Shown: piece by piece, positions 37,491 through 41,431 of the stretch
How the letters are laid out: each line of letters starts with the position of its first letter
Numbering within the stretch: position 1 is the stretch's first letter
From: Chloroflexota bacterium
Lineage (GTDB): Bacteria; Chloroflexota; UBA11872; VXOZ01
Direction of reading: 5' to 3'
DNA length: 54,456 nt
NCBI GenBank assembly: GCA_022824225.1
Contig: JAJEAH010000049.1
Coordinates: forward strand, 1 to 54,456
Made by a program: the position numbers and the translations under genes
The notes under the pieces: generated by a model
What the model was told of the DNA's origin: nothing
Seen by the model: the letters and a program-made list of their open reading frames with translations, nothing else
The model's database searches: none

Positions 37491-38708
37491 CTACAGGCCG
37501 AACACCCGGGTTTCCGGCTTGAAGACCGCCCACGCAAACCAGAAGTGATTGCCGCTTACCACCGGCTGGAGTTGCTTTCCGGCCAACGGGCCGTCAGTCG
37601 CGCTGCCCAGCACGTTCCACTGTGACTTCGTCTCGGAGTCGACGATCCCGCCCTCATCGGTGACGCTGAATTCCAGTACCGCGCCGTCCAAGACCGAAGA
37701 GTAAGCGCTGGACGACCCGATGTCGCTGCCGCGAGAAAAGGGCGAATCCGTGCCGGGCTGGTGGAAGACCACGATGGACTCGCCGCCCACCGTATCCGCT
37801 ACCACCTTCTCTTCTGCCAGGACAGAGAAGGGATACGCGGCGTCTTCGCCATTGATGGACACCGTTACCACTCGTTCCATGGCGGGCAACCTGCCGTCCA
37901 CCGGCTCGAAGAAGAGGAACGGCGACCGGCTAATGTCGTCATAGCCAGGATAGGGATTGAACCCGTAGGACCGGGGATAGCCGGTATCGCGGGAAAGTAC
38001 GACACCCTCCGGATGGGTGGCACGGAAGTCGGCGAACGACACCATGGCCGCCGGCACGGGTGTCAGCCGCTTGCCGGTGAGTTCTCCCACGATGGCGGCG
38101 CCCGTGATCTGCTGCCACCAACTCTCGGTCTGCCGGTCGTACATGATCAAGTCACTGTAGCGCAGGTTGCCGCTCACGCCAAAGTCGTAGGTTGTGCCGT
38201 CCAAGCGCCGGTCAAAGGCAATAGCGGTATTGCAGAGCGGGCAAAACGTCACCGTTACCGGCACACCGCCCAGCGTGTCGTTGACGATTTCGTGCCAGAC
38301 CAGGACTTCGATGGGATAGGCCCGTGCTTCGCCGTTGATTTCCACTGACACGACGGGCGCCTTGTCATCGAGGTAGCGTTCGGCATCCTCGTTGCTGATG
38401 AAGTTCGGCTCGTCGATGGCTGGGATGCCGTCCTTGCCGGGACCGCCGGATGAAATCTCGCTGTACGGCACGCTGTGCTTGGTGAAGTCCGTACGCCAAC
38501 CGTGGGTTGGGAACGAAATATCCGGATCGAGCGTCGGCGCCGGCTGCGGGCTAGCGGCCTCCGGCACTGCCGTCGCGGCATCTTCCGATTCCACAACGGT
38601 GCCTTGACCCATTTCCCCGCACGCGGCAATCGCCGCGATTCCAATCGATGCGGCCCCGGTCGCCAATAGGATGTTGCGTCTGCTCAAGCCTCTACGTCTA
38701 GATTCCAT
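37491..38708 (-). CDS. DUF3179 domain Tat-exported lipoprotein
   Basis: This is a 405-residue exported protein of unknown function. The N-terminus RRRGLSRRNILLATGAASIGIAAIAACGE is a twin-arginine signal with a lipobox Cys at about residue 30. The mature protein has the DUF3179 motifs: DKAPVVSVEINGEARAYPIEVLVWHEIVND, VTVTFCPLCNTAIAFDR with the CxxC pair, and FGVSGNLRYSDLIMYDRQTESWW. The CxxC may bind metal or be redox active. It is downstream of the Crp/Fnr gene by 17 bp and probably co-transcribed with it. Confidence 0.87.
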   Translation of the reverse strand: MESRRRGLSRRNILLATGAASIGIAAIAACGEMGQGTVVESEDAATAVPEAASPQPAPTLDPDISFPTHGWRTDFTKHSVPYSEISSGGPGKDGIPAIDEPNFISNEDAERYLDDKAPVVSVEINGEARAYPIEVLVWHEIVNDTLGGVPVTVTFCPLCNTAIAFDRRLDGTTYDFGVSGNLRYSDLIMYDRQTESWWQQITGAAIVGELTGKRLTPVPAAMVSFADFRATHPEGVVLSRDTGYPRSYGFNPYPGYDDISRSPFLFFEPVDGRLPAMERVVTVSINGEDAAYPFSVLAEEKVVADTVGGESIVVFHQPGTDSPFSRGSDIGSSSAYSSVLDGAVLEFSVTDEGGIVDSETKSQWNVLGSATDGPLAGKQLQPVVSGNHFWFAWAVFKPETRVFGL

Positions 38709-38725: not shown

Positions 38726-39478
38726 TTAACTGCCATGAACGTGAATCCCCTGGGTCAGAGCTTCCAGGCCCGGCCGGTCGGTCACGCTAATGCGTTTGCG
38801 GCCGACCTCCAACATATTGCCGTGCTTCAATTTGTGGAACGTCGCCGTCACGGTCTCACGGTAGACACCCAGCATGTCCGCAAAATCCTGATGGGTGAAT
38901 CCGACAACTTCATCTGAGTCCTCGGCAAGGCGCAGGATGAGAGCGGCAATACGCGCCGGCATGGTCATGAACGCGCTCTCGTGCAAGCGTTCCTCCGCTT
39001 CTTGGAGGCGCTCGTTGAGCACTTGGATGAGGCGCAGACCGATCCGTGGATAGCTGAGCAGTATGCGTTCTACTTCTGCCCGCCCCAGCGTACACAGCGA
39101 CACGTCGTCGACAGCCTCCGCTACAGTGTCCCCCATCGCTTGTCCAAAGAGCGGCATTTCGCCAAAGAATGTGTCAGGCCCCAGCATGGCGAGCACCAGC
39201 TTGCGGCCGTCGAACGAGATGCGATAGAGCTGGACACGTCCCTCTTTGATGAGAAAGAGCGCCTCATTGCCGTGCTCAGGCGTGAAGATTACCCGCCCCC
39301 GCTTAACGTGCACGGTGGCGCCGGCATGGTCGAGTTCGCTGATCTCTTGAGGGAGAAGGTCCGCGAAGATTTCTATCTTCGCGATGCAGGAGAGGGTGCG
39401 GTTGTACAAACCTGGACTACTGATTTCACGCGGGCGCGCATCTCCGGCTTTGGATGACAGCGCATGGTTGTTTCGCAT
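38726..39478 (-). CDS. Crp/Fnr family transcriptional regulator
   Basis: This is a 250-residue regulator with an N-terminal cyclic-nucleotide-binding fold (IEIFADLLPQEISELD, GNEALFLIKEGRVQLYRISFDGRKLVLAMLGPDTFFGEM) and a long dimer helix. The winged helix-turn-helix is FTHQDFADMLGVYRETVTATFHKLKHGNMLEVGRKRISV, where RETVT is the recognition helix. No Fnr-type N-terminal cysteine set for an Fe-S cluster is present. The start at 39478 has GAGGGCG 8 bp upstream. It precedes the DUF3179 lipoprotein gene by 17 bp, a possible target or partner. Confidence 0.9.
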   Translation of the reverse strand: MRNNHALSSKAGDARPREISSPGLYNRTLSCIAKIEIFADLLPQEISELDHAGATVHVKRGRVIFTPEHGNEALFLIKEGRVQLYRISFDGRKLVLAMLGPDTFFGEMPLFGQAMGDTVAEAVDDVSLCTLGRAEVERILLSYPRIGLRLIQVLNERLQEAEERLHESAFMTMPARIAALILRLAEDSDEVVGFTHQDFADMLGVYRETVTATFHKLKHGNMLEVGRKRISVTDRPGLEALTQGIHVHGS

Positions 39479-39924
39479 GGTTCGCCCTCGCTCGCGCGGT
39501 AGAGACCTCAAGAGAGGACTTCTACGCTAAGCAGCCACTCAAGCTGAGGATACCATGCCTACGGGCAGGAATTTGTATGCAAGGCTACATTGGGCGAGCG
39601 CCAGCGTTCAGCGCGGCAATGCGATTCTTGTGATGGGGCTGCGAGGCACATCATGGCGAAGCGCTCAAGGCGGGCTGACTGGACATCGGCCCACGCCCAG
39701 TCATGCGCACCTGTTCCAGCCGGACGGACGAGACGCCCGCCGTCCCACAGCAAGTAGCATGCGGTGGGATGGGACCCTCCGGCGGGAAAGGCCACAGGCC
39801 CGCGCACATGCCAGCAACGCGCGCGGGTGGGTCCGCAGAACAGCCAGCCAACCACACAGGCAGCGCGCCTCGGCCGCGCCGCGCACGTGTGCCACGCCCT
39901 CGCGCAAACGGCGCCGCAGGGCAA
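39479..39924. other. GC-rich gap between the HTH-MBL gene and crp/fnr, no gene seen
   Basis: This 446-bp stretch is very GC-rich with several overlapping frames on both strands, none with a recognisable protein or ribosome site. It must hold the promoter of the Crp/Fnr gene, but I see no clear -35/-10 pair. The sequence composition differs from the coding regions around it. Confidence 0.4.
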
Positions 39925-40758
39925 CTAGCCGAAGTAGGGGTTGTGCACGCGTTCTTCCCGCACCGTCGTGGCCGGACCGTGCCCAGGGAGGAGCTTGGTC
40001 GCGGCGGGCAGCGTGAGGATACGCTCGCGAATCGTCTGCAGCATGTCGGCATAGGTCAAGCTGCACCGGCCCATGGATCCCGCAAACAACGTATCGCCCG
40101 GAAACGCGGCGCTGCCAATCACGTAGGTGACGCTGCCCGCCGTATGGCCGGGCGTGGGCACGATTTCCACGTCGAAGCCTTCCAGCGCTAGCGAATCTTC
40201 CCCGGGCAGGACGCGAAGTTCGCCGCCCACGTCACCTTTGACTAGAGAGACGTCGGCGGCGTGGAGGTACATGTCCGCTCCGGTGCGCCGCCGGATTGTG
40301 CTCGCGGCCTCAGTGTGGTCGCCGTGGCCGTGGGTGTTCAAGATAGCCAGGAGGCGCACGCCGGCCTGCCGTACGCGCTCGGCAACAGCCTCACCCAGCC
40401 CACCGGCATCGATGAGGACCGCAGTGTCCGTCTTCCCATTCAGCAGCAGGTAGACATTGGCGTTGTATTCTTCCACCAGGAAGCGTTCAATAGCGATGTC
40501 TGCGCCGGCCGCATAGTCACAGGGCTCCGGCTCCCATTCTTCTCGGGCAATTGCCCCAAGCCGGTCTTCCTCCAACGCCAGCAAGGCCGCCAGGCGGCTG
40601 ATGGTCGCCTGGTCCGGCGTGAGCGTGTAGTCCTCCATCTTCTCGACGTCGACTGAGGTCACACCCACCCGGCCGGCCACGTCAGCCACGCTCAAGCCCA
40701 GGCCCCGTCGGGCTTTGCCAATGATGTCACCAAATTCATCTTCCAATGCATAGGGCAT
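39925..40758 (-). CDS. Helix-turn-helix plus metallo-beta-lactamase-fold hydrolase fusion
   Basis: This 277-residue protein combines two domains. Residues 1-70 are an XRE/Cro-type helix-turn-helix (GLSVADVAGRVGVTSVDVEKMEDYTLTP). Residues 85-275 are a glyoxalase-II-like metallo-hydrolase with THGHGDHTE (zinc HxHxDH at 143-148), PTPGHTAGSV, FPGDTLFAGSMGRCSL and LLPGHGPAT. The hydrolase half resembles hydroxyacylglutathione hydrolase-like MBL proteins. Most relatives lack the HTH part. It lies 41 bp downstream of the cyclophilin-like gene. The role is unknown; it may be a regulator sensing a thioester or lactone, or an enzyme whose HTH serves in dimerisation. Confidence 0.85.
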   Translation of the reverse strand: MPYALEDEFGDIIGKARRGLGLSVADVAGRVGVTSVDVEKMEDYTLTPDQATISRLAALLALEEDRLGAIAREEWEPEPCDYAAGADIAIERFLVEEYNANVYLLLNGKTDTAVLIDAGGLGEAVAERVRQAGVRLLAILNTHGHGDHTEAASTIRRRTGADMYLHAADVSLVKGDVGGELRVLPGEDSLALEGFDVEIVPTPGHTAGSVTYVIGSAAFPGDTLFAGSMGRCSLTYADMLQTIRERILTLPAATKLLPGHGPATTVREERVHNPYFG

Positions 40759-40799: not shown

Positions 40800-41180
40800 T
40801 TAAGTTGCCGCGTCTTTCTCGATGGTCACCGCCGTACCACCGGAAACGCGCTTGAAGACCGTTGCGTCTCCTTCTACTTTCCCAAAGACGTTCACGGGTG
40901 ATGCCGGCCGGATCTCAGCGCCGCGGCTCATGGGCGTTGGGCCATAGAAGATGCAGAAGGCGTTGCCCGGCGGCCAGTAGCCCAAATCGCCAAGCGCCAC
41001 GACTTCCTGGGCGTCGTCTTCTGGGAGCGACACGGGGATGCGGAAGTAGATTTCCTCGCCCCACACGTTGGCGCTGCCCTCAATCGGCAACGCCTCCCAA
41101 ATGGCTTGAGCGGTGGCCGAATTGTTCAGTTCCGCGACGGCTTCCACACCACCGCAGCGAATGGTCAAGCGTCTCGCCAT
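40800..41180 (-). CDS. Cyclophilin-like fold protein (TM1367-type)
   Basis: This is a 126-residue protein of the cyclophilin-like/DUF369 family. It has the blocks ELNNSATAQAIWEALPIEG, NVWGEEIYFRIPVSL, VALGDLGYWPPGNAFCIFYGPTPMS and the closing VNVFGKVEGD. The family has the cyclophilin beta-barrel but no established isomerase activity. It precedes the HTH-MBL gene by 41 bp, so the two probably form one unit. The ATG start is unambiguous. Confidence 0.82.
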   Translation of the reverse strand: MARRLTIRCGGVEAVAELNNSATAQAIWEALPIEGSANVWGEEIYFRIPVSLPEDDAQEVVALGDLGYWPPGNAFCIFYGPTPMSRGAEIRPASPVNVFGKVEGDATVFKRVSGGTAVTIEKDAAT

Positions 41181-41431
41181 CGTATCCTCATACTGTCAGC
41201 CCTCAATCCATTGCATCTCTTCTGTATCATGGGAGGGAGGTGGTTTGCAAATGGCAGGCGCTCACCGAGGGGTGGTGTGGGTGCGCTGCGCTCCTATCGA
41301 GGTTTCCCGGAATATCGTCGGAATCGCGGAATCCCTTCGCGGATTCCGGCAACCTCTCCACCAATCCTCGGCTTCTCTACATTGATTTGTGCAACGGTAT
41401 CTATAGCCGATCCTCTATTGAGTTAGTAACC

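Follow-up and report, generated by a model that had tools for sequence, protein, structure and literature searches.

Layout of the fusion gene and its surroundings

The DNA analysed here, referred to as the window, is a contig of 54,456 nucleotides from a member of the Chloroflexota. On its reverse strand, at positions 39925-40758 (read from 40758 to 39925), lies an open reading frame of 277 amino acids with orthologs in related genomes, whose ATG start codon is preceded by GGAG. Its product consists of an XRE/Cro-fold helix-turn-helix (HTH) domain (residues 5-71; 40546-40746, reverse strand), identified by Pfam, AlphaFold2 and fold matches, and a metallo-β-lactamase (MBL)-fold hydrolase domain (residues 96-277; 39928-40473, reverse strand), identified by Pfam, structure prediction and matches in both sequence and fold. 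The Pfam family Lactamase_B matches residues 98-260 with an E-value of 1.4e-19, which exceeds its cut-off, while HTH_31 matches residues 9-67 (E 5.9e-5) with 23.7 bits against a cut-off of 27; residues 1-80 by themselves score 26.6 bits, still under that value. The full-length AlphaFold2 model, built with 15 orthologs, has five helices (residues 7-19, 24-31, 35-42, 50-59 and 64-71) followed by the MBL fold, with a mean pLDDT of 88.3 and a pTM of 0.88. When the HTH domain is modelled alone with 29 orthologs the same five helices are predicted, the first beginning at residue 5, with a pLDDT of 88.9. The two-part protein is real and not a chance arrangement, since full-length orthologs are found in 37 of 40 other genomes of the class. 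A preliminary description of this DNA, made from the letters alone, had proposed an HTH fused to an MBL hydrolase, and both the fusion and the HTH fold of its N-terminal part are borne out.

A co-directional gene for a cyclophilin-like protein of the TM1367 type (126 amino acids; 40800-41180, reverse strand), which matches PF04126 with an E-value of 6.9e-45, lies 41 bp upstream of the fusion. A probable sigma-70-type promoter of the pair, TTGCAA ... GATACA (41223-41250, reverse strand), was picked by eye from an alignment of the regions 5' of the cyclophilin-like gene in five members of the genus, which share a TTGC / TGATACAGA-like block; the hexamers are about 16 bp apart in the window. The two genes adjoin in four of the five genus genomes that carry both, the window included, and are separated by about 4.7 kb in the fifth. 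No match to the cyclophilin-like gene was found in the neighbourhoods of the fusion in 33 class genomes beyond the genus, some of them cut by contig ends. The pairing pointed out in the preliminary description thus stands as a feature of the genus, and the cyclophilin-like protein was rejected as a general functional partner because the pairing is limited to that genus. On the other side of the fusion, a DUF3179 protein (37491-38708) and a CRP-type regulator (38726-39511) follow, co-directional and in an order conserved in the genus.

Elsewhere the neighbours differ. In one other genus of the class a glyoxalase-I-like gene lies about 12 bp upstream of the fusion in all six genomes, over 8 loci of which two are duplicate copies. 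Going by gene names read from sequence, a RecQ-like gene is near the fusion in 11 loci and peptide-permease-like genes lie 3' of it in 48 of 62 Poribacteria loci; in the Nitrospirota set it is preceded by a TrmI-like (tRNA methyltransferase) gene in 7 loci or a macrodomain-like gene in 5, and followed by a RibA-like gene in 8 or an M50-protease-like gene in 16. No neighbour is constant across the loci, a pattern that fits poorly with a local regulator.

The hydrolase domain

The seven metal ligands are complete in sequence and alignment: H143, H145, D147 and H148 of the HxHxDH motif (40315-40332), H205 in TPGH (40144-40146), D222 in GDTLFAGS (40093-40095) and H260 in GHGP (39979-39981), all on the reverse strand. 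The zinc hydrolase domain is thus as complete as the preliminary description had it. The closest solved relatives in both sequence and fold are S. aureus GloB (7L0B), BLEG-1 (7EV5) and YcbL (S. enterica, 2XF4), that is, glyoxalase II enzymes of the YcbL type, with which the domain shares the MBL fold, the metal ligands and a GHGP..T...E...NPF tail. The chain ends with NPYFG soon after the last metal ligand, and the C-terminal α-helical domain is missing from the fusion and from the YcbL-type enzymes too (PMC8431146). What the fusion adds to these enzymes is its N-terminal HTH. Curated family models fit poorly, with the glyoxalase II equivalog TIGR03413 far under its cut-off (84.2 of 200.8 bits) and the β-lactamase models for subclass B3 (42.1 of 240 bits) and the class B core (44 of 100) also below their curated cut-offs.

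YcbL and BLEG-1 carry an insertion near the metal centre, Glu85-Ala103 in BLEG-1 (PMC8431146), which in the fusion is mostly missing; gaps appear at about residues 176-185 of the fusion protein on alignment to 7L0B and 7EV5. The loop between HxHxDH and PGH measures 51-57 residues in 33 of 36 fused sequences and 65-70 in 15 of 21 stand-alone ones, a short loop also being present in the other 6 of the 21. Given that most of the insertion is missing relative to most stand-alone relatives, the pocket is probably more open. Two fused sequences, assigned to archaeal carriers by their lengths, have very short active-site loops of 33 and 37 residues.

Comparing 37 fused with 22 stand-alone MBL domains, we observed that wherever a single residue fills a column in at least 85% of the fused sequences, it also occurs in at least 41% of the stand-alone ones, and that the ligands match. 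The catalytic core is therefore intact, and as judged from these alignments the hydrolase domain looks active. The same comparison revealed no invariant residue specific to the fused domains, and thus nothing on the MBL side that would readily serve, within the protein, as a docking site for the near-invariant helix described below. The second histidine of HxHxDH is replaced by aspartate (HxDxDH) in 20 of 38 class members (L038, L044-L047, L049, L052-L058, L060 and L062-L067 of the alignment), and stays histidine in the 69 other sequences of the one-genome-per-species set and in 30 of 30 orthologs of the Nitrospirota set. This replacement would alter the metal position that is left empty in the YcbL crystal (PMC8431146).

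S. aureus GloB acts on S-lactoylglutathione and carboxy esters (PMC8318587), which is the ground for our guess of a thioester or ester substrate. In the genome of the window, the thiol-biosynthesis families BshC and GCS2 gave no match, and MshC and BshA gave matches only below cut-off; bacillithiol, mycothiol and γ-glutamylcysteine were accordingly rejected as cofactors within the scope of these families. Among the effectors proposed in the preliminary description, a thioester agrees with the closest relatives and with the glyoxalase-I-like gene found beside the fusion in one genus. A glutathione adduct, by contrast, is an unlikely effector, because the genome gave no GCS2 or BshC match and no MshC match above cut-off.

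Conservation within the helix-turn-helix domain

The fold matches of the HTH domain include C.BclI, SinR, P22 c2 and Mbf1, at TM values of about 0.7 and a best E-value of 0.0036. HTH_3 and HTH_31 each match 27 of 29 members at E-values up to 0.1, and R17, E42 and P48, which we take to be positions typical of XRE domains, are invariant in the ortholog alignment. The best PDB profile match is the MBF1-like protein 2mez (E 1.9e-7). A profile of the domain finds a single strong copy (at least 97 bits) in 38 of 41 genomes, and since no second match exceeds 39 bits, this type of HTH is confined to the fusion in those genomes. Net charge was discarded as a sign of DNA binding: residues 5-71 carry -6, and the charge is uninformative because seven HTHs of that genome, taken as controls, span the range from +4 to -5 (+4, +1, +2, +4, -4, -4 and -5).

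Conservation within the domain is concentrated in a near-invariant N-terminal helix, LEDEFGDIIGKARRG (residues 5-19; 40702-40746, reverse strand), with the core LE[DN]-x3-D-[IV]-x2-K-x-R, and is low at the position of the recognition helix (residues 35-42; 40633-40656, reverse strand). Averaged over alignment columns of the 38 class members, the entropy of the N-terminal motif and helix 1 (residues 5-19) comes to 0.39 bits; helix 2 has 1.70, the recognition helix 1.83 and the MBL domain 1.56. The strict motif LEDE[FL]GD is present in all 38; of 30 orthologs from the Nitrospirota set, all 30 share the looser pattern LE[DN]-x3-DI-x2-K-[AS]-R-x-G and 7 have the strict one, while two more distant orthologs (L212 and L213) read LEDQ-x2-DVLKKFRYG. 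The class (38) and Nitrospirota (30) sets are the independent ones in this respect; the one-genome-per-species set was scanned with LEDE[FL]GD[VIL][IV], and conservation of the strict motif in it is partly by construction.

Ordinary XRE/Cro regulators, whose five-helix fold the fusion shares, would be expected to conserve the recognition helix. Relative to the window, the proteins of six matched genomes are 98% identical over the N-terminal motif and helix 1 and 50% identical over the turn and recognition helix, whereas a control B12-binding/XRE protein from the same six genomes has 60% and 89%, respectively. The control is one XRE family, with seven orthologs aligned and six counted, L218 being omitted because its genome is without an HTH-MBL match. 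Within the genus itself the turn and recognition helix of the fusion are just 50-67% identical in four genomes. We infer from these patterns that helix 1, rather than the recognition helix, would be the working surface of the domain. The control protein (G000:C26:550-1440, L214), with its strongly conserved recognition helix, belongs to a type found in all six genus genomes and in two genomes of another family; its B12-binding domain is a reading of the sequence.

Simple alignment of the cyclophilin/fusion promoter in five genus members showed no evident repeat, at a sensitivity that a short or diverged site could escape. In the regions 5' of 61 Poribacteria orthologs, conservation is concentrated in a TATAAT-type promoter and a Shine-Dalgarno sequence, and in a simple test of the 40 of these 61 sequences that were scored the best inverted repeat averaged 5.45, versus 5.38 after shuffling.

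Distribution and proposed role

Among 101 genomes, the window's own and 100 relatives, full-length orthologs are found in the former, in four of five other genus genomes (the one without a full-length match is 69% complete) and in 33 of 35 other class genomes. Beyond the class, the search covered 60 genomes of the phylum, and there the matches listed all start at residue 79 or later, so that among these only the hydrolase part is matched. Scanning one genome per species for the N-terminal motif yielded 216 stretches and 156 relatives; the 80 of the 156 that were listed comprise, by title, 62 Poribacteria, 11 Chloroflexi/Chloroflexota including one Thermoflexus, 3 Nitrospirae/Nitrospirales, 1 Nitrospinae, 1 Latescibacteria and 2 archaeal MAGs. 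In the phylum of one Nitrospirae MAG (L137; 245 genomes), at least 90 genomes have a match that starts at model position 1-4 with an E-value of 2.2e-70 or lower, and at least 18 further matches with weaker E-values start at position 3 or 4. In the phylum of an archaeal MAG (L140; 194 genomes), 7 genomes have a match at an E-value of 1e-40 or lower: one is full-length, one (L188) is shorter and has the LED helix, and the other five, one of them unreadable, have no LED helix in the stretch read. The occasional archaeal occurrences of the fusion, or of a shortened form (L134, L140, L187 and L188), may reflect transfer or misbinning.

In a tree of the hydrolase domain, one branch with support 99/99 splits the 37 fused from the 22 stand-alone sequences, no member without the HTH falls on the fused side, and two archaeal fused proteins are sisters with support 100/97. 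A single origin of the fusion fits this division, in that the fused MBL domains occupy one side of the branch; the sequences were picked by choice, and one origin is uncontradicted within this sample.

From these observations we hypothesize, at a probability of about 0.5, that the protein is an active thioester or ester hydrolase of a housekeeping type that is docked or positioned by its HTH fold. Its C-terminal domain would be a short MBL-fold esterase or thioesterase of the kind of YcbL and S. aureus GloB, whose metal site, predicted from the ligands, would activate a water molecule and cleave the substrate. The N-terminal XRE fold would not serve mainly to read an operator; its conserved face, the first helix with LED-x3-D-[IV]-x2-K-x-R, may dock the enzyme on a conserved partner (a protein, the ribosome or a nucleic-acid backbone) or hold an oligomer together, and docking would bring the hydrolase to the site where its substrate is produced. 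The variable gene neighbours would follow, because such a partner would be a housekeeping component and not an operon mate. More tentatively, and with rather less confidence than in the general proposal, we envisage an ancient protein of single origin, present in several phyla, in which an XRE HTH was turned from a reader of operators into a docking module with helix 1, and not the recognition helix, as its functional surface, carrying the hydrolase to a conserved housekeeping partner that is possibly the translation machinery.

The preliminary description had favoured a regulator that destroys or senses its own effector. In such a one-component design the HTH would sit on an operator and the MBL domain would sense or cleave the effector, much as in BzdR, an XRE protein with an enzyme-derived sensor (PMC3602430). 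The genuine XRE fold, the invariant R17, E42 and P48 and the HTH_3 and HTH_31 matches all speak for it; however, the recognition helix is poorly conserved, even inside the genus, and the N-terminal helix near-invariant, the reverse of the one XRE control, while the promoters of five genus members and 61 Poribacteria yielded no operator-like repeat in simple alignments and there is no constant neighbour to control. The likeness to BzdR is moreover one of layout alone, an N-terminal domain of DNA-binding type, a linker and an enzyme-derived domain: its shikimate-kinase-like domain had to lose catalysis and the protein controls a promoter (PMC3602430), whereas the fusion, by its sequence, keeps the catalytic ligands and not the recognition helix. 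We therefore regard a regulator as unlikely. Marginally less likely still is that the HTH acts as an intramolecular or intersubunit lid, which would shape the pocket in place of the missing loop and of the missing C-terminal helical domain found in classical glyoxalase II. The pTM of 0.88 for the two-domain model hints at a fixed domain arrangement, which would suit such an internal role and counts against docking, and the mostly shorter loops of the fused enzymes and the absence of an HTH-less member from their side of the tree agree with a lid; against it, the MBL side has no fused-specific invariant residue, and in the full model the pLDDT is below 50 over residues 1-6, among them the invariant L5 and E6.

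We consider it improbable that the HTH tethers the hydrolase specifically to ribosomes or tRNA-related machinery in the manner of MBF1, an XRE-type HTH protein that can serve ribosomes or coactivation and not operators (PMC3062615, PMC6301793 and PMC7486125). Besides 2mez, the profile matches include ribosome-bound EDF1/MBF1 chains, the fold matches include chains of the Mbf1 disome and of EDF1 on the ribosome, and the fusion follows the TrmI-like gene in the seven Nitrospirota-set loci; but ordinary DNA-binding XRE proteins match the domain about equally well by profile and fold, and the fusion, with four residues before its motif, is without the MBF1 N-terminal region (aMBF1 model, 23.3 bits against a cut-off of 110). 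Conversely, MBF1 is not known to carry an MBL domain.

Fusions of an HTH to an enzyme are already known as a kind; among the listings of open-licence PMC papers we found no description of an HTH-MBL fusion. PqsE has the MBL fold and RhlR is a LuxR-type factor. Their cooperation is the nearest partnership of a thioesterase with a transcription factor (PMC9715718), formed by two separate proteins, as opposed to one chain with an XRE fold. We stress that, on the docking hypothesis, the layout of an HTH plus an enzyme need not signify a regulator. Kept across several phyla, in single copy in most class genomes and with a near-invariant motif, the fusion offers a handle on an unknown housekeeping function, and since many genomes of the Nitrospirota set carry it, the hypothesis lends itself to tests on the isolated protein or in hosts that can be grown. 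Within that set, a run of a TrmI-like gene, the HTH-MBL gene and a RibA-like gene, with gaps that mostly do not exceed a few tens of bases, is seen at L157, L161-L164, L168 and L174.
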